A DNA stretch of 34,254 bases. Origin: Spirochaetota bacterium. GTDB lineage: Bacteria > Spirochaetota > Spirochaetia > B11-G9. The DNA lies in contig JAJRQE010000213.1 of the NCBI GenBank assembly GCA_024280415.1, positions 1 through 34,254 of the forward strand. The letters are read 5' to 3'. This document shows positions 1,870-32,719 of this stretch, in pieces. The notes under the pieces are model-generated. The model saw only the letters and a list, made by a program, of their open reading frames with translations. It was not told the DNA's origin and did no database searches. Numbering within the stretch: the first letter of the stretch is position 1; every line of letters starts with the position of its first letter. The position numbers and the translations under genes are program-made.

Positions 1870-2462
1870 CATTTTACAGTGCTGCTATAATGCTCTTTCT
1901 TGTAATGGATCCATTCGGGAATATACCTGTTTTTCTATCTGTCCTGTCACATGTTGAGCCTGAAAAACGGATAAAAATAATTATCAGAGAGCTGCTTATA
2001 GCCCTTATCTTTCTTTTATTCTTCCTTTTCTTCGGTAAGTACATATTAACAGGTATGCATATTACAGAACCTGCTCTGGGAATTGCAGGGGGAACAATAC
2101 TGTTTCTTATTGCAATAAAAATGATTTTTCCAGGATCAAATTCATCCTTTGTAAATGAGGATGACAGGGAGAGCGACCCTCTGATAGTTCCTCTGGCAGT
2201 ACCCATGGTAGCAGGCCCCTCATCAATGGCTATGGTAATTCTTTTAAGTACCCAGTATCCCCATCAGCTTTTCAGCTGGCTGGGAGCACTGCTCACAGCC
2301 TGGTCTGTGGGTTTTATTATCCTGATTATGGCAGAAAAACTTAGTAAAATTGTCGGACGGAGGACACTGAAAGCCATTGAAAGACTAATGGGTATGATCC
2401 TTACAACAATGGCCGTTCAAATGCTTCTAACAGGAATAGAGACATTTATAGCATCGGTGTAA
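1866..2462 (+). CDS. MarC family integral membrane protein
   Basis: The ATG at 1866 overlaps the upstream TGA and has GGGAGA about 10 bases upstream; it is preferred over an ATG at 1848 that lacks a good ribosome site. The protein is about 198 residues, almost entirely hydrophobic, with about six membrane segments. It carries the family signature Met-Asp-Pro-Phe-Gly-Asn-Ile-Pro near the N-terminus and a second hydrophobic half with Pro-Leu-Ala-Val-Pro-Met-Val-Ala-Gly-Pro. MarC/SNARE-like proteins are inner-membrane proteins of uncertain function, and some have been proposed as amino-acid exporters. The last 13 codons are duplicated about 830 bases downstream (3251-3291). Confidence 0.92.
   Translation: MTFYSAAIMLFLVMDPFGNIPVFLSVLSHVEPEKRIKIIIRELLIALIFLLFFLFFGKYILTGMHITEPALGIAGGTILFLIAIKMIFPGSNSSFVNEDDRESDPLIVPLAVPMVAGPSSMAMVILLSTQYPHQLFSWLGALLTAWSVGFIILIMAEKLSKIVGRRTLKAIERLMGMILTTMAVQMLLTGIETFIASV
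2421..2461 (+). repeat. Direct repeat, copy A (3' end of marC)
   Basis: These 41 bases are the last codons of marC. They recur at 3251-3291 with three mismatches. Including the neighbouring stop codons (TAA here, TAG there), both copies encode nearly the same peptide tail: Leu to Phe and Val to Met are the only changes. The copies flank the BrnT/BrnA-type module. Confidence 0.9.
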
Positions 2463-2473
2463 CCGGTGTCTCG

Positions 2474-2487
2474 ATACATTAATGTAT
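2474..2487. repeat. 14-bp perfect palindrome after marC
   Basis: ATACATTAATGTAT is fully self-complementary. It lies in the 37-base gap between the convergent ends of marC and the BrnA-like antitoxin gene. It is AT-rich with no GC stem, so it would be a weak terminator at best. A protein-binding site is also possible. Confidence 0.5.
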
Positions 2488-2499
2488 ATAGATGACGGT

Positions 2500-2817
2500 T
2501 TACAACTCTATCTTTATTTCGTTTTTTACATACTTATGAATAATAGCTGCAAGTAAAGGCTGATAATCAATTCCAGACTGTCTTGCCTTTGCTTTCAGAC
2601 CAATAAGGTCATCTTTTGGCAGACGAAAGGTTATTTTACTGTCTTTTTTCTTCTTCGACCGGAGAGCAGCTTCTTTTAGCTTTAACAGAAGCCGATCTTC
2701 TTCAACAGGGGATAAACTGTTGCCAGGGATCCAGGCACTTTCTATTTCCTGTATTTCATTTTTTTCATCTTCATTAAAATACCGAATATTATATAAATCC
2801 TTAGTCCTGTTATCCAT
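2500..2817 (-). CDS. BrnA/CopG-like antitoxin
   Basis: A 105-residue charged protein. The C-terminal third holds the DNA-binding part: a short strand Lys-Ile-Thr-Phe-Arg-Leu-Pro, then two helices ending in Ile-His-Lys-Tyr-Val, as in BrnA-type ribbon-helix-helix antitoxins. The N-terminal half (acidic, with Trp-Ile-Pro-Gly) would be the toxin-binding part. Its start overlaps the end of the upstream toxin gene by 8 bases. That toxin-first order is the BrnT-BrnA arrangement and suggests one mRNA repressed by the complex. The 3' 100 bases of this gene are duplicated at 4010-4117. Confidence 0.82.
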   Translation of the reverse strand: MDNRTKDLYNIRYFNEDEKNEIQEIESAWIPGNSLSPVEEDRLLLKLKEAALRSKKKKDSKITFRLPKDDLIGLKAKARQSGIDYQPLLAAIIHKYVKNEIKIEL

Positions 2818-3076
2818 CAGACATCTCCTTCTTAATTTTTCTGCTGGGATAAATAGTTTTAAGAAAAAAACCTTCCTCTAATTCCACAGCCGGACATACC
2901 CACCAGTATTCATCATACTGAAATAAAATAATTATCTGACCAGAATATTTTTCCTGGTTTGGATGGGGCTCAATAATAACTGACCCATCAATTATCATCT
3001 CACAGACAATTTCAAAAGAGATATCCCTGGTTTTTAATAAATACTGATTTTTTTCTTCATTCCAATCAATGGTCAT
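2810..3076 (-). CDS. BrnT-like toxin
   Basis: An 88-residue protein that starts Thr-Ile-Asp-Trp-Asn-Glu-Glu-Lys-Asn, close to the N-terminal signature of BrnT-type RNase toxins. It goes on with Ile-Ser-Phe-Glu and a helix, then beta strands, and ends with Phe-Leu-Lys-Thr-Ile-Tyr-Pro-Ser-Arg-Lys. This C-terminal form is common in the BrnT relatives that pair with CopG-like antitoxins. The gene overlaps the antitoxin by 8 bases. The ribosome site is weak, which is common for toxins. RNase activity is inferred from the family only. Confidence 0.8.
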   Translation of the reverse strand: MTIDWNEEKNQYLLKTRDISFEIVCEMIIDGSVIIEPHPNQEKYSGQIIILFQYDEYWWVCPAVELEEGFFLKTIYPSRKIKKEMSDG

Positions 3077-3250
3077 CTATTTAACAGTACCACTTCAGAT
3101 GGCCATTGTCCATACATTTAGTAATCCAGCTCGGAAGCTGTTGTAAAAATTTACCGGGAGATATACCCATTAATAATTCCCGCTCTTAAACTAAACTATT
3201 AACTCTTTTTCCCCGAAATGAATTTTTGAAAAGAAATTAAATAAGGGAGA

Positions 3251-3291
3251 ATGTTTCTGACAGGAATAGAGACATTTATAGCATCGATGTA
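3251..3291 (+). repeat. Direct repeat, copy B (orphan marC tail)
   Basis: This copy matches 2421-2461 at 38 of 41 positions and keeps the marC reading frame through to a TAG stop. The DNA upstream of it (3077-3250) shows no other marC similarity, and I saw no gene there. The repeat therefore represents only the gene tail. It sits directly before the VapC stop codon side of the second toxin-antitoxin module. Confidence 0.88.
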
Positions 3292-3305
3292 GTGGAAATA
3301 ATTGT

Positions 3306-3680
3306 TTAAATCAACTGAAGACCAAAGTCAACAAAATGTTTAAAGTCAATAATATTTTCGGTTGCCAGACTGGCATTACTGATAATTGCAGCAGATGCTA
3401 TCATGGCATCCACACGCAAATGTCTCTTCCTTCCGGATTTATTGAACAAATGTGCCGCTTCTGCTGAATGATCCGATGTAAAGGGAATTACCCTTTCTTC
3501 GAGTAAAGAATGCACAACAATTATTCCTTCATCATCTACAGGACCGCAGAGGAATTCATACCAGGCTACTCCGGAGGTACAAAGGATCTCACCATTTTGT
3601 ATCCATTCAATAATACGGATTGCTTCTATTGTTTCTGGTATAAGAGATCTTATTAAGTAGTTTGTATCGAGAAGAATCAT
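3306..3680 (-). CDS. VapC-like PIN-domain toxin
   Basis: A 124-residue PIN-domain protein of normal length. The acidic residues that bind metal are present: Asp5 in Leu-Leu-Asp-Thr-Asn-Tyr-Leu, Glu42 after Ala-Trp-Tyr, and Asp91 in Arg-Val-Asp-Ala-Met-Ile-Ala. A C-terminal Ala-Thr-Glu-Asn plus Asp112-Phe replaces the usual Thr-X-Asn-X-X-Asp-Phe. VapC toxins are metal-dependent RNases acting on tRNA or rRNA; the target here is unknown. The gene starts 2 bases after the antitoxin stop codon, so the pair is translationally coupled. All key residues are present, so it is probably active. Confidence 0.9.
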   Translation of the reverse strand: MILLDTNYLIRSLIPETIEAIRIIEWIQNGEILCTSGVAWYEFLCGPVDDEGIIVVHSLLEERVIPFTSDHSAEAAHLFNKSGRKRHLRVDAMIASAAIISNASLATENIIDFKHFVDFGLQLI

Positions 3681-3682
3681 TA

Positions 3683-3937
3683 CTAACGACCCCAGTCAGA
3701 GCGGTTTTCAGCAACTTCATCAAGATATTCATTGACAGCATTAATCTTAAGATTGCTTCGTTTATGGTACTGCCTAAGGCTGTCAAGTTTATCTTCAGTT
3801 TCAGTTTTTATTTCACTTTCTGCCTGTTTAATAGCTTTCCGTACAACCTCAGCCTGGGAGACATGCCATATAGCCGCCAGTTTTCTTAACCTGAGAATAG
3901 TCGCTTCATCCAGTGCAAAGGTCGTTCGTTTATTCAT
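3683..3937 (-). CDS. VapB-like ribbon-helix-helix antitoxin
   Basis: The N-terminus from the ATG at 3937 reads Met-Asn-Lys-Arg-Thr-Thr-Phe-Ala-Leu-Asp, a typical CopG/Arc strand. It is followed by two helices with Val-Ser-Gln-Ala-Glu-Val-Val-Arg-Lys-Ala-Ile. The charged, acidic C-terminus would wrap VapC. In-frame ATGs at 3946 and 3964 are also possible; none of the three has a convincing ribosome site. The gene lies directly upstream of vapC. The complex normally represses its own promoter, so the regulatory site should lie in 3938-4009. Confidence 0.85.
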   Translation of the reverse strand: MNKRTTFALDEATILRLRKLAAIWHVSQAEVVRKAIKQAESEIKTETEDKLDSLRQYHKRSNLKINAVNEYLDEVAENRSDWGR

Positions 3938-4009
3938 TATCGCCATACCATAAGGATGTACCATAAGCTATCATCTGTCAAGTGTGAAAAGTCATATCAA
4001 CCTGGCAGT

Positions 4010-4117
4010 TTACAACTCTAATTTAATTTCATTTTTTACATACTTATGAATAATAACTGTAGGTAAGGGCTGATAATCAATTCCAGACTGTCTGTCCTTT
4101 GCTTTTGCAATGTCCAT
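4010..4117 (-). pseudogene. Duplicated 3' end of the BrnA-like antitoxin gene
   Basis: About 98 bases here match the 3' end of the antitoxin gene at 2500-2600, with roughly one mismatch in nine. The frame is kept: an ATG at 4117 opens a 35-codon frame whose last 30 or so residues nearly match the antitoxin C-terminus, including Ser-Gly-Ile-Asp-Tyr-Gln-Pro-Leu and Ile-His-Lys-Tyr-Val, and it stops at the same codon. The N-terminal two thirds and the toxin are missing. It may be dead, or it could make a mini-antitoxin consisting only of the second DNA-binding helix region. No clear ribosome site is visible. Confidence 0.85.
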
Positions 4118-10846: not shown

Positions 10847-12703
10847 TTATACTACCTCTATTGCATCAAAATTACATGCTTCAATACAGAGTCCGCATCG
10901 GGTACATGTTTCAGGGTCTATTACATGGATCTTTTTTCTCATCCCTTCAATTGCACTGACAGGACAAACCCTTGCACATAAAGTACAGCCGGTACAATTA
11001 TCAGGTATAACCTGAATGGTAATTAACGACTTACAAACACCAGCAGGACACTCACGGTTCTTTATATGCGCTTCATACTCCTCACGAAAATATTTTATGG
11101 TTGTCAGAACAGGATTAGGTGCAAGCTGCCCAAGACCACAAAGTGAAGTTTTGGTTATATGCCCTGCAAGCTCTTCAAGTTTGTCCAGATCCTCCAGCTT
11201 ACCATTACCCTCTGTAATTCTGATCAAAATCTCCAGCATACGTTTCGTACCTATACGGCAGAATGTACATTTACCACAGCTTTCATTCTGAGTAAATGAC
11301 AGGAAGTACCTTGCAACATCAACCATACAGGTAGAGTCATCCATAACAACCATACCGCCGGAACCCATAATTGCACCGGTTTCATTGATTGAATCGTAGT
11401 CAATTGGGGTATCAAACAATCGTTCGGGTATACACCCGCCTGCAGGACCTCCCATCTGAACAGCTTTTACAGGTCGCCCGGAAGAGGTTCCACCACCAAT
11501 ATCAGTAACAATTTCTCTAATAGACAGACCCATAGGGACTTCTATTAAACCACCACGTTTTATTTTACCAGCTAAGGCAAATACTTTTGTGCCATAACTG
11601 TTTTTAAAAGCATATTTATTAAATGCGTCTGCACCGTTTAAAATAATAAAGGGTACATTCCCGTAAGTTTCCACATTATTAATATTGGTAGGAGATTTAT
11701 TTATACCGGAATTTGCAGGAAAAGGAGGCCTTAACCTGGGCATCCCCCGCTTCCCTTCAATAGAGGCCATAAGGGCAGTCTCTTCACCACAGACAAAAGC
11801 ACCTGCACCCTCTTTTACATGAAGATGAAAAGAAAAATCAGTTCCTAATATATTATCACCAATATAATTTTTCTCTTCTCCGGCAGCTATTGCAATATTA
11901 AGTCTTTTAATAGCCAGAGGATATTCTGCTCTGCAGTAAATAATCCCTTCCTTTGCACCTGTTGCATATGCTCCTATAAGCATCCCCTCAATTACCTTAT
12001 GAGGATCTCCCTCTAAAATTGATCTGTCCATAAATGCACCGGGATCACCTTCATCTGCATTACAGACTAAATATTTATAATCTCCCTTACGACTAAGAAC
12101 GGGATCCCGACACTCTGTGTCGCCCGTTTTATCTCCCTTACGACTAAGAACGGGATCCCGACACTCTGTGTCGCCCGTTTTATCTCCCTTAGCGCCTGCA
12201 AGAAAAGACCATTTAAGACCTGTAAGAAACCCTGCTCCTCCCCGCCCCTTAAGACCCGATGCTTTTACAATAGAAACCACCTCTTCTGGTTTATATTCCT
12301 CTATACATTTTGTTAAAGCTTTATATCCATCTGCTTCCAGATATTCATCTATACACTCTGGATTAATAATTCCACAATTTTGCAGAACAATCTTTACCTG
12401 CCTGTCCAGATATTTTTTTCCATCCTCAGACAGCGCAATCATATTCTTTTCAGGGAAAGTCCCTGTTTTTACTGATTCAAGTAATTCATCAGCAAATTTC
12501 TTATCCACATAGCCATATCTGCGGCGCTCACCGTTATGCTCGATCTCTACTATGGGTTCCGCATAACACATTCCAACACAGGAGGTAACTTCCAGATCCA
12601 ATCCACCGCTTTTAAGATCAGGTGCCATGTAATCATAGATATCCTGAGCCCCGGCAGCTATTCCACAGGAACCAAGGCCGACAAATACTCTAGTGTTTTC
12701 CAT
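10847..12703 (-). CDS. StnB/NuoF/HydB-like NADH-binding flavoprotein
   Basis: A 618-residue NuoF-type subunit. It has an N-terminal thioredoxin-like [2Fe-2S] domain (Cys13, Cys42, Cys46), then the FMN loop Gly-Arg-Gly-Gly-Ala-Gly-Phe (153-159) and the NADH-site motif Asn-Ala-Asp-Glu-Gly-Asp-Pro-Gly (215-222). An SLBB region follows, then the Cys-Gly-Lys-Cys-X2-Cys cluster and two C-terminal [4Fe-4S] ferredoxin motifs. NADH oxidation at FMN, possibly with electron bifurcation, is the family role. Between the FMN loop and the Asn-Ala-Asp-Glu motif, two identical 17-residue segments (173-189 and 190-206) are inserted; they are encoded by a palindromic DNA repeat and have no counterpart in the family as I know it. 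The start overlaps the StnA-like gene by 14 bases. Confidence 0.9.
   Translation of the reverse strand: MENTRVFVGLGSCGIAAGAQDIYDYMAPDLKSGGLDLEVTSCVGMCYAEPIVEIEHNGERRRYGYVDKKFADELLESVKTGTFPEKNMIALSEDGKKYLDRQVKIVLQNCGIINPECIDEYLEADGYKALTKCIEEYKPEEVVSIVKASGLKGRGGAGFLTGLKWSFLAGAKGDKTGDTECRDPVLSRKGDKTGDTECRDPVLSRKGDYKYLVCNADEGDPGAFMDRSILEGDPHKVIEGMLIGAYATGAKEGIIYCRAEYPLAIKRLNIAIAAGEEKNYIGDNILGTDFSFHLHVKEGAGAFVCGEETALMASIEGKRGMPRLRPPFPANSGINKSPTNINNVETYGNVPFIILNGADAFNKYAFKNSYGTKVFALAGKIKRGGLIEVPMGLSIREIVTDIGGGTSSGRPVKAVQMGGPAGGCIPERLFDTPIDYDSINETGAIMGSGGMVVMDDSTCMVDVARYFLSFTQNESCGKCTFCRIGTKRMLEILIRITEGNGKLEDLDKLEELAGHITKTSLCGLGQLAPNPVLTTIKYFREEYEAHIKNRECPAGVCKSLITIQVIPDNCTGCTLCARVCPVSAIEGMRKKIHVIDPETCTRCGLCIEACNFDAIEVV
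12081..12182 (-). repeat. Tandem 51-bp palindromic element inside the stnB-like gene
   Basis: Two identical 51-bp units occupy 12081-12131 and 12132-12182. On the + strand each begins with TCTCCCTTA, and a third copy of these 9 bases follows at 12183-12191, so each 42-bp core is flanked by a 9-bp direct repeat like a target-site duplication. The core forms a two-step hairpin: outer arms AACGGG/CCCGTT and inner arms CGACAC/GTGTCG with a 3-base loop. The unit length is a multiple of three, so the reading frame continues and adds 17 residues per copy. A diverged relative is at 31565-31605. Confidence 0.92.
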
Positions 12704-31564: not shown

Positions 31565-31605
31565 CGACTAAAACAGGTCCCCGGTACTTCGTACCGCCCG
31601 TTTTA
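31565..31605 (-). repeat. Diverged copy of the palindromic element, downstream of ychF
   Basis: This 41-base stretch shares the outer parts of the 12081-12182 element (CGACTAA at one end, CGCCCGTTTTA at the other). The inner stem is different but still perfect: CGGTAC/GTACCG with a 3-base loop instead of CGACAC/GTGTCG. It begins 4 bases past the ychF stop and could act as its terminator. It shows no clear target-site duplication. Confidence 0.8.
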
Positions 31606-31609
31606 TCGA

Positions 31610-32719
31610 TTATACGTTAAACCTGAAGTGCATTATATCACCGTCATTTACCAAATAGTCTTTACCTTCAATCCGCATCTTGCCCGCTTCTTTTACCTTC
31701 TGTTCCGTTTTATACAGAAAGAGATCTTCACAGTTATAAACCTCTGCCTTAATAAATCCTTTTTCAAAATCTGTATGAATTACTCCTGCTGCCTGGGGAG
31801 CTTTGTATCCCGTATGGAAAGTCCAGGCTCGATTCTCGTCTGCTCCAGCAGTAAAGAAAGTACGAAGTCCCAGCATTCTGTATCCTGTATGAATAAGGGT
31901 ATCCATTCCCGATTCAGTAAGTCCGGAAGCCTCCATAAATTCTACTTTCTCCTCTTTTGAATCCAGTGAGGCAATTTCTGCTTCCAGTTTTCCACAGATT
32001 ATAACAACCTCCGTCCCCTCTTCTTCGGCAATCTTCTTTACAGTATCTACATGAACATTAGAATTTTCGATAGATTCCTCATCTACATTACAGACATAGA
32101 GCTGCTTTTTAATTGTTATTAAATGAAGATCATAGATCTGAGCAAGCTGTTCATCTGTAAAATTCAGGGATCTGGCAGATCTGCCACTACCCAGAACCTC
32201 CATAAGTCTATCCAAAAGAGGTAATAGTGCATTAAGCTTCTTTACAGCCTCTTTATTACCTGCTCTAAGAGCCTTTTCTGTCTTATCCCTTCTTTTTTCC
32301 ACAGCTTCCAGATCTGCCAGAGCAAGCTCGATATTGATAGTTTCAATGTCAGATGCAGAATCTATCTTATTATCCACATGAACAACATCTTCATCTTCAA
32401 AACAGCGTACAACATGAACAATAACATCGACATCACGGATATGGGAGAGAAACCTGTTTCCAAGACCCTCACCTTTTGATGCTCCTTTAACCAGACCTGC
32501 TATATCAACAAATTCCACCACAGCAGGTATAACCTTTGCAGTAGGTATAAGTTCTGTTATCCTGTCCAGTCTCTCATCCGGAACAGCAACAATACCAACA
32601 TTAGGATCGATAGTACAGAAAGGATAGTTCGCAGCTTCTGCCGGAGCAGATGTCATAGCAGAGAAAATAGTCGACTTACCTACATTTGGCAATCCAACTA
32701 TACCGCAGTTTAAACCCAT
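31610..32719 (-). CDS. ychF: Redox-regulated ATPase YchF
   Basis: A 369-residue OBG-type P-loop protein of normal length. The P-loop Gly-Leu-Pro-Asn-Val-Gly-Lys-Ser-Thr is at the N-terminus, with Asp-Ile-Ala-Gly-Leu-Val (Walker B/G3) next. The C-terminal TGS domain follows and ends in Phe-Arg-Phe-Asn-Val. The usual GTP-specificity motif is changed to Cys-Asn-Val-Asp-Glu, as in YchF/OLA1, which bind ATP. AAGGA lies upstream of the ATG. It is a housekeeping gene, divergent from sbcB. Confidence 0.97.

Follow-up and report, generated by a model that had tools for sequence, protein, structure and literature searches.

The in-frame insert in the hydB gene of an uncultured member of the Spirochaetaceae most probably consists of two tandem copies of a 42-bp, non-autonomous, REP/MITE-like mobile palindrome, which is targeted to Shine-Dalgarno (SD)-like DNA, is accompanied by a duplication of about 9 bp, and forms its tandems locally; we give this reading a rough probability of 0.68. 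The insert itself is a real insertion and beyond chance, because the site is empty in six relatives (G001–G006), the inserted residues are absent from 108 of 109 homologue sequences, and the core belongs to a covarying family. So far the element has been found in one genus of uncultured Spirochaetaceae. The window, i.e., the whole 34,254-nucleotide stretch of DNA analysed, is contig C237 of a draft genome of 3.91 Mb in 338 contigs (G000); G001–G005 are five congeners and G006 represents another genus of the same family.

Structure of the insert in hydB

Tandem Repeats Finder detected a single array in the whole window (12080–12191, period 51, 2.2 copies, 100% matches), confirming the two perfect 51-bp units of the original prediction as identical. 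Read along the minus strand, the sense of the gene, the order is TAAGGGAGA, element, TAAGGGAGA, element, TAAGGGAGA. The SD-like TAAGGGAGA, which is TCTCCCTTA on the plus strand, stands first in gene sense at 12183–12191, again between the two elements at 12132–12140, and last at 12081–12089. The 42-bp elements, with gene-sense ends TAAAACGGG...TTAGTCG and the full sequence TAAAACGGGCGACACAGAGTGTCGGGATCCCGTTCTTAGTCG, occupy 12141–12182 and 12090–12131; they are identical and both were matched by the covariance model. The core had been expected to fold as a two-step hairpin, and the computed fold agrees, with an 8-bp outer stem, a 4-nt bulge, a 6-bp inner stem and a 3-nt loop, at −16.1 kcal/mol (z −3.2) on the plus strand and −15.9 kcal/mol (z −2.0) on the other strand.

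Between fixed anchors, hydB measures 130 nt here versus 28 nt in each of G001–G006, a net gain of 102 bp. The closest empty site, in G005, reads GCTAAGGGAGATTATAAA and holds TCTCCCTTA once, where the filled site holds it three times; therefore the 9 (or 10) bp TAAGGGAGA(T) are the duplicated target, in line with the predicted 9-bp duplication around the core. Because some letters are common to the target and the element ends, the line between the 9 bp and the 42 bp can be drawn only to within a few bp, and the duplication is perhaps 6–10 bp long.

The open reading frame at 10847–12703 continues uninterrupted across the insert, which encodes KTGDTECRDPVLSRKGD twice, so that the two extra 17-residue segments and the preserved frame both stood as predicted. 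Translational bypass, with the ribosome skipping the hairpin, was rejected as a candidate: nothing supports it, and the inserts in hydB and ilvB (see below) are both open and in frame.

Host gene and probable tolerance of the inserted residues

The host gene (10847–12703, minus strand) encodes a HydB/HoxF/StnB-type NADH-/FMN-binding 51-kDa subunit of 618 amino acids, including the 34 inserted residues (about 175–208). A profile scan found the Pfam domains Complex1_51K, NADH_4Fe-4S and Fer4, the PDB relatives are HoxF, HydB and NfnB, and the match to NCBIfam nuoF_fam fell under its cut-off; the NuoF/StnB-like label given earlier thus holds in the form of a HydB/StnB-type NADH/FMN subunit. Its neighbours are genes for a thioredoxin-like 2Fe-2S subunit and for a pyridine-nucleotide oxidoreductase that has iron-sulphur domains, a neighbourhood which fits the StnB label. 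The closest named orthologues come from Spirochaetaceae/Spirochaetia metagenome bins (DAOWEB010000061.1, JAOZPU010000068.1 and DAOWMA010000249.1). Elsewhere in the window, toxin-antitoxin-like genes lie at 2420–4105, with a CopG antitoxin at 2500–2817 (under its cut-off) and a PIN domain at 3306–3680; the last 42 bp of a MarC-family gene (its 3′ end) are repeated beside them at 3250–3291 (93%), and 103 bp of 2493–2595 are repeated at 4003–4105 (88%).

The loop ahead of the CNADE motif comprises 46 residues here versus 12–16 in 108 of the 109 homologue sequences, a set in which at least four contigs are present twice and one sequence is unreadable; none of the 108 readable homologues carries the 34 residues, whose presence in other taxa would have spoken against an insertion. 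The AlphaFold2 model of the host protein, built on a 33-sequence alignment, has a mean pLDDT of 84, with residues 175–206 below 50 and devoid of secondary structure. The 34 residues are therefore predicted to form a disordered loop just ahead of the strand opening the FMN/NADH domain. Such a floppy-loop model supports, short of proof, the suggestion that the insert is tolerated in a loop.

A dispersed family with a conserved fold

The 27-bp centre of the core, searched with up to three mismatches, occurs at two places in the whole genome, both in hydB, and an exact pattern and a gapped pattern returned two places and one, respectively. The private repeat suggested by the exact and gapped patterns was overturned by the covariance model, which revealed a family. 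Built from the two seed sequences and run on 59 genomes, the first model matched 19 copies in this genome, 35 in the five congeners and, weakly, one in G052; the other 52 genomes gave none. The refined model, built from 55 matches (44 distinct), found 58 copies in the six genomes of the genus, with 20, 7, 2, 12, 12 and 5 in G000–G005, and none in G008–G010, which were searched in the same way. Four of the 58 (G001:C42, G003:C116, G003:C414 and G000:C167:7358) lie outside the inspected set. Under stricter filters, this genome alone was matched among 392 genomes of the phylum, the 391 others giving none; G006 and G007, from genera of the same family, were covered under stricter filters only, both by the first model and G006 by the 392-genome search. 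The covariance-model search of genome and relatives that had been proposed thus recovered the family in all six genus genomes searched, and the unit is not confined to hydB, since this genome's 20 copies include the two in hydB, the exact copies being found there only.

The third copy in the window, a diverged one of 41 bp at 31565–31605 on the minus strand, lies just after the stop codon of the gene at 31610–32719, which we take to encode a YchF-like GTPase; its inner stem differs through compensatory changes, and the same gene also has a copy in G001 and G004. In the set of 44 distinct copies, the paired share of pair cells is 91.9%; shuffles give 82.4%, none of the 500 being as high as the real value, and a slid pairing gives at most 49%. 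Of the 14 pairs, 11 have changed on both sides, both stems included. Copies of the element are dispersed through the genomes with their structure conserved, and at orthologous sites one sister species may carry a copy that another lacks; the mobile palindrome of the original prediction is borne out by the empty sites in G001–G006 together with this dispersed covarying family.

The weak G052 match (L108, C69:31735–31775, E 3e-4) comes from a distant family and is also followed by an SD and start codon, AAGGAGATTTTATG; it may be chance or a remote cousin and is excluded from the genus counts. Viral contigs gave 0 matches to one 24-base degenerate pattern, and plasmids gave no match to the 103-bp tandem. 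Eleven copies (L074–L082, L093 and L105, in G004, G003 and G001) sit inside a longer repeat alignable over about 124–225 bp, mostly starting AGCTTTTTGCGCTG and often near contig ends in G004, and the element seems to be carried along there by a second repeat family. In addition, L065–L068 (G000:C77, C167 and C222) are tandem arrays of 96–97 bp made up of the element and another palindrome, CACTTTCC..GGAAAGT, in alternation, and in L067, L071 and L101 a third, GAGCAGNAANCTTGNTTNCGACCAG-like palindrome appears to interrupt element copies, so that repeat families would nest within one another.

Read-through copies and tandems

In G002, the element lies within the acetolactate synthase gene ilvB (TIGR00118, 7e-200). 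The congeners' protein reads EHPLR, two or three residues, and (K/N)EIS at this place, and that of G002 reads EHPLRTGDKTADAEHRRPVLSRQGGNEIS. The gain is 51 bp by anchors (64 versus 13 nt against G004, G003 and G005) and a 51-bp gap in the alignment against G001 and G006, and the copy is read in the same frame as those in hydB. At L072 and at a further locus shared by three species (L085/L087/L088), the upstream gene likewise reads across the element in the hydB frame and stops just behind it.

Tandem pairs at 50–52 bp spacing occur in hydB, at C105 and C102 of G000 and at C211 of G003, with remnants of an adjoining copy at C194, C132 and G005:C68; the partners are identical at hydB and C102, and alike except near one end at C105 and C211. 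The 96–97-bp pairs are a different array, that of the element alternating with another palindrome. Local duplication between short direct repeats explains the tandems better than repeated arrival. Short reads resolve the copy number of tandems poorly, and in a 338-contig metagenome bin the hydB tandem might be suspected of being an assembly artefact or contamination. We consider this very improbable, as the frame is intact, both copies match the genus-wide family, tandem pairs stand at three other loci and pair remnants at three more, and a single-copy version is present in ilvB of another genome.

Empty sites, net gain and flank duplication

Several sites filled in one genome are empty in others. 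The macB-like gene is filled in G000 and empty in G002, G001 and G004 (no G003 orthologue came up); DctM is filled in G000 and empty in G001, G003 and G005 (no orthologue came up in G002 or G004); rpmA is filled in G003 and empty in G005, G001, G002 and G004; and fliQ, filled in G003 and tandem in G000, is empty in G005, G002 and G004, G001 having a different 42-nt spacer. Ahead of the macB-like gene of G005 (L215, C42), the upstream flank and the element's TAAAAT run straight into the SD, apparently the scar of a deletion, and rpmA of G000 (L238, C127) is preceded by a longer stretch with an element-like start (GATAAAATGGGCGGTAC) and an SD at its end, which may be a decayed element copy with something inserted.

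Against the closest empty site, the net gain is 102 bp at hydB, 51 at ilvB, 52 at the macB-like gene, 50 at DctM, 51–52 at rpmA and 50 at fliQ. It shifts with the reference, to 47–52 bp at the macB-like gene (40 against the G005 scar) and 24–50 bp at fliQ, because spacers vary. One insertion thus adds about 51 bp, namely the 42-bp element and about 9 bp.

The target duplication is exact at hydB only and inexact at five further sites. Flank likeness, compared without gaps over 23 loci, gave p 0.02–0.03 for 8–10 bp and 0.66–0.96 for 5–7 and 11–12 bp; with shifts, 19 loci gave p 0.12–0.61, or 0.026–0.85 with two bases trimmed, the ilvB copy being included in both sets. The signal of flank duplication across loci is therefore weak. 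The upstream duplicate is without the GG of the SD in four intergenic loci compared with empty sites (L064, L072, L094 and L098), a loss that could possibly come from selection against a decoy ribosome-binding site; hydB and ilvB keep the GG, and since it is also kept at G002:C225, G004:C186, G005:C9:5271 and G003:C147, its loss is no rule. In all 19 of the 19 loci, whatever the target, the base just ahead of the element is A, and in 17 of them the last two bases are GA. Given this constancy and the GG loss, some of the 9 bp may be element rather than target sequence.

Contact with Shine-Dalgarno sequences

On the sense strand, the TTAGTCG end often stands directly before a NAAAGGAG-like sequence, with the start codon 11–17 nt further on. 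Scoring asked for an SD-like motif no more than 12 nt away and a start codon 8–24 nt away; by this measure, an SD and start codon directly follow the element in 14 of 20 intergenic copies versus 1 of 18 at the opposite end, where two rows had too little readable flank. The 20 rows were taken from 55, one per locus where possible, although two (G001:C31 and G003:C102) precede the same CheY-like gene; the 35 dropped were the copies in hydB (2), ilvB (1), the longer repeat (10), the 96-bp arrays (6) and tandem loci (9), orthologous repeats (5), one rearranged copy and that of G052. In six of the 20, the SD and start codon are missing where they would be expected, which counts against our reading: the SIS gene copy, the copy behind the YchF-like gene, G001:C26 (in a longer repeat), G004:C291, G000:C63 and G001:C90. 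A scan of ten of the 20 downstream proteins gave a Pfam match for each (L27, response regulator, FtsX/MacB permease, FliQ, NifU, desulfoferrodoxin, SIS-domain, TPR, POTRA and DctM); their functions are unrelated, and therefore they form no regulon.

The 14 copies directly ahead of an SD and start codon, together with the covarying base pairs, would also suit a hairpin that acts as a cis-regulatory 5′ leader RNA before ribosome-binding sites and is kept by selection, the hydB copy being accidental. At least five loci (YchF-like, NifU, TPR, CheY-like and FliQ) carry the element in two or three species, and wobbles over 12 of the 14 pairs, the two outermost left out, fit the mRNA strand, that of the downstream gene, by 21 to 7, a contrast mostly gone once pair 8-41, outside this count, adds 11 for the opposite strand. 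Nevertheless, the conservation expected of a leader RNA is wanting, as most orthologous genes examined in sister species are without the element, and the downstream genes share no function. A regulatory leader would also have to accommodate the tandem copies, the copies in coding DNA and those within other repeats. No Rfam family reached its gathering score in the window, the four weak matches in the hydB region being far under their cut-offs and not believed. We thus regard selected leader RNA as improbable, and co-option of single copies as regulators is possible.

The two sites in coding DNA bear on target choice, because there an SD-like motif has no translational use. Under a matrix built from the 20 intergenic rows, with hydB and ilvB left out, the hydB site comes third in SD-likeness among 1747 sense positions, with 2 antisense positions as high; the ilvB site is weaker, ranking 63 of 1828, with 37 antisense positions as high. 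Since the orientation is also the same as in intergenic copies, recognition of the SD-like motif by the inserting machinery is favoured, by two cases that are few and of which the second is modest.

Some of the contact might be due to harmless insertions having survived. Taken further, insertion might be untargeted and copies might survive only where harmless, just upstream of the SD in tight operons. Many copies do occupy tight stop-to-SD gaps, and the hydB insert falls in a predicted floppy loop; such filtering, however, leaves unexplained why the orientation to the SD is constant in the 14 copies with 1 of 18 at the other end, and why the SD-like motif recurs at the hydB and ilvB sites, where it has no translational role. 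Untargeted insertion therefore seems unlikely to us.

Proposed mechanism of insertion

If SD-like DNA is indeed the target, a sequence-specific recombinase or transposase would make a staggered cut in purine-rich NNAAGGAGN DNA, and the element would be inserted with its TTAGTCG end facing the SD. Gap repair would then duplicate the SD, so that the downstream gene would keep its ribosome-binding site. At an SD-like stretch in coding DNA, the same reaction would add 51 bp, i.e., 17 codons; the element is open in that frame, and the product would survive if the place is a tolerant loop. Tandems would then follow from slippage or unequal exchange involving the short direct repeats that flank the hairpin. 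We suggest only tentatively, at somewhat less than even odds, that a mobile palindrome choosing SD DNA in a fixed orientation and duplicating the SD, with the downstream ribosome-binding site kept and 17 codons added in coding DNA, follows a safe-haven strategy via an unrecognised recombinase.

Counting against the targeted mobile palindrome, no transposase tied to the element was found at the 20 Y1_Tnp loci examined, which come from 30 matches and include 15 from the genus and three of this genome's five. The element could alternatively be a REP mobilised by a RAYT (a Y1 tyrosine transposase), through single-stranded hairpin transposition into a short specific target in one orientation. Y1_Tnp genes occur in eight of nine genomes searched, with five matches in this genome, and the hairpin with an unpaired tail, the one-orientation insertion and the intragenic copies are REP-like according to parts of PMC3733652. 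Yet none of the 20 Y1_Tnp loci has an element within flanks of up to 1.5 kb, even at E ≤ 10, the GTAG tag is absent, and the perfect 9–10 bp at hydB is at odds with IS200/IS605 elements, which lack a larger target duplication in the portion of PMC2817692 that treats them. Mobilisation by RAYT is thus rather unlikely.

Comparison with known palindromic elements

Rickettsia palindromic elements (RPEs) lie in-frame in genes, as sections of PMC2229807 and PMC10969869 describe. The predicted likeness in principle to RPEs is upheld by the in-frame copies in hydB and ilvB, in two species: both kinds of element are short palindromes found in-frame in conserved genes as well as between genes, and open in the frame used. 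Judged, as this likeness is, by description, the differences are that the first-described RPEs measure 105–146 bp (PMC2229807, in part) versus 42 bp here, that they belong to a different phylum, and that SD targeting was not found in the portions of the RPE literature covered (PMC2229807 and PMC10969869).

CGTC-tagged REPs (Di Nocera et al. 2013, PMC3733652) also occur in Spirochaetes and cover RPE-4, RPE-6 and dRS3, according to sections of that paper. Like the element, they are described there as small hairpins tailed at one end by unpaired bases, with copies inside genes and with no dedicated transposase found. The same sections give them a terminal CGTC (or TGTC/CCTC), a single 8–9 bp stem, a 4–5 nt loop and a CCA tail, whereas the element has a two-step stem with a 4-nt bulge and a tail CGAC (sense GTCG) in 35 of 55 rows, with CGTC in none, and lacks a CCA tail. 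The element also forms head-to-tail tandems, which that account calls negligible for CGTC repeats, and unlike them has a target duplication at hydB; the words Shine, start codon and duplication are absent from the main text of PMC3733652. GTAG REPs mobilised by RAYT resemble the element as dispersed, tailed hairpins that are sometimes intragenic, but none of the 55 rows has a GTAG tag at an end, none of the 20 Y1_Tnp loci is flanked by the element (E ≤ 10), and the element has a target duplication at hydB.

Bacterial MITEs (RUP, BOX, Correia/NEMIS, ERIC), of which BOX and RUP are described with SPRITE in parts of PMC3049150, are likewise non-autonomous palindromes with a target duplication and possible effects on neighbouring mRNA. 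The duplication of the element is exact at hydB against the empty sites of six relatives, inexact at five sites and weak over all loci. MITEs measure 70–300 bp in the relevant portion of PMC3733652 versus 42 bp here, and the element has no terminal repeats beyond the hairpin itself. The element thus works like an RPE or a MITE and is a proven member of no tested family. Site-specific elements aim at tRNA genes, terminators or other repeats. A palindrome targeted to SD sequences was found in none of the titles and beginnings of abstracts among the matches listed for small palindromes, MITEs or insertion sequences together with SD or ribosome-binding site, a literature in which few subscription journals were covered.

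An element that aims at ribosome-binding sites and restores the site by duplication would, if true, explain how tiny palindromes can colonise tight operons and occasionally enter proteins. The movement of transposase-less palindromes such as RPEs becomes testable, as a target motif and a net gain of 51 bp are now concretely predicted. Moreover, with its natural series of empty, single, tandem and scar sites, this genus of uncultured Spirochaetaceae offers a setting for measuring the gain, doubling and loss of hairpin repeats.
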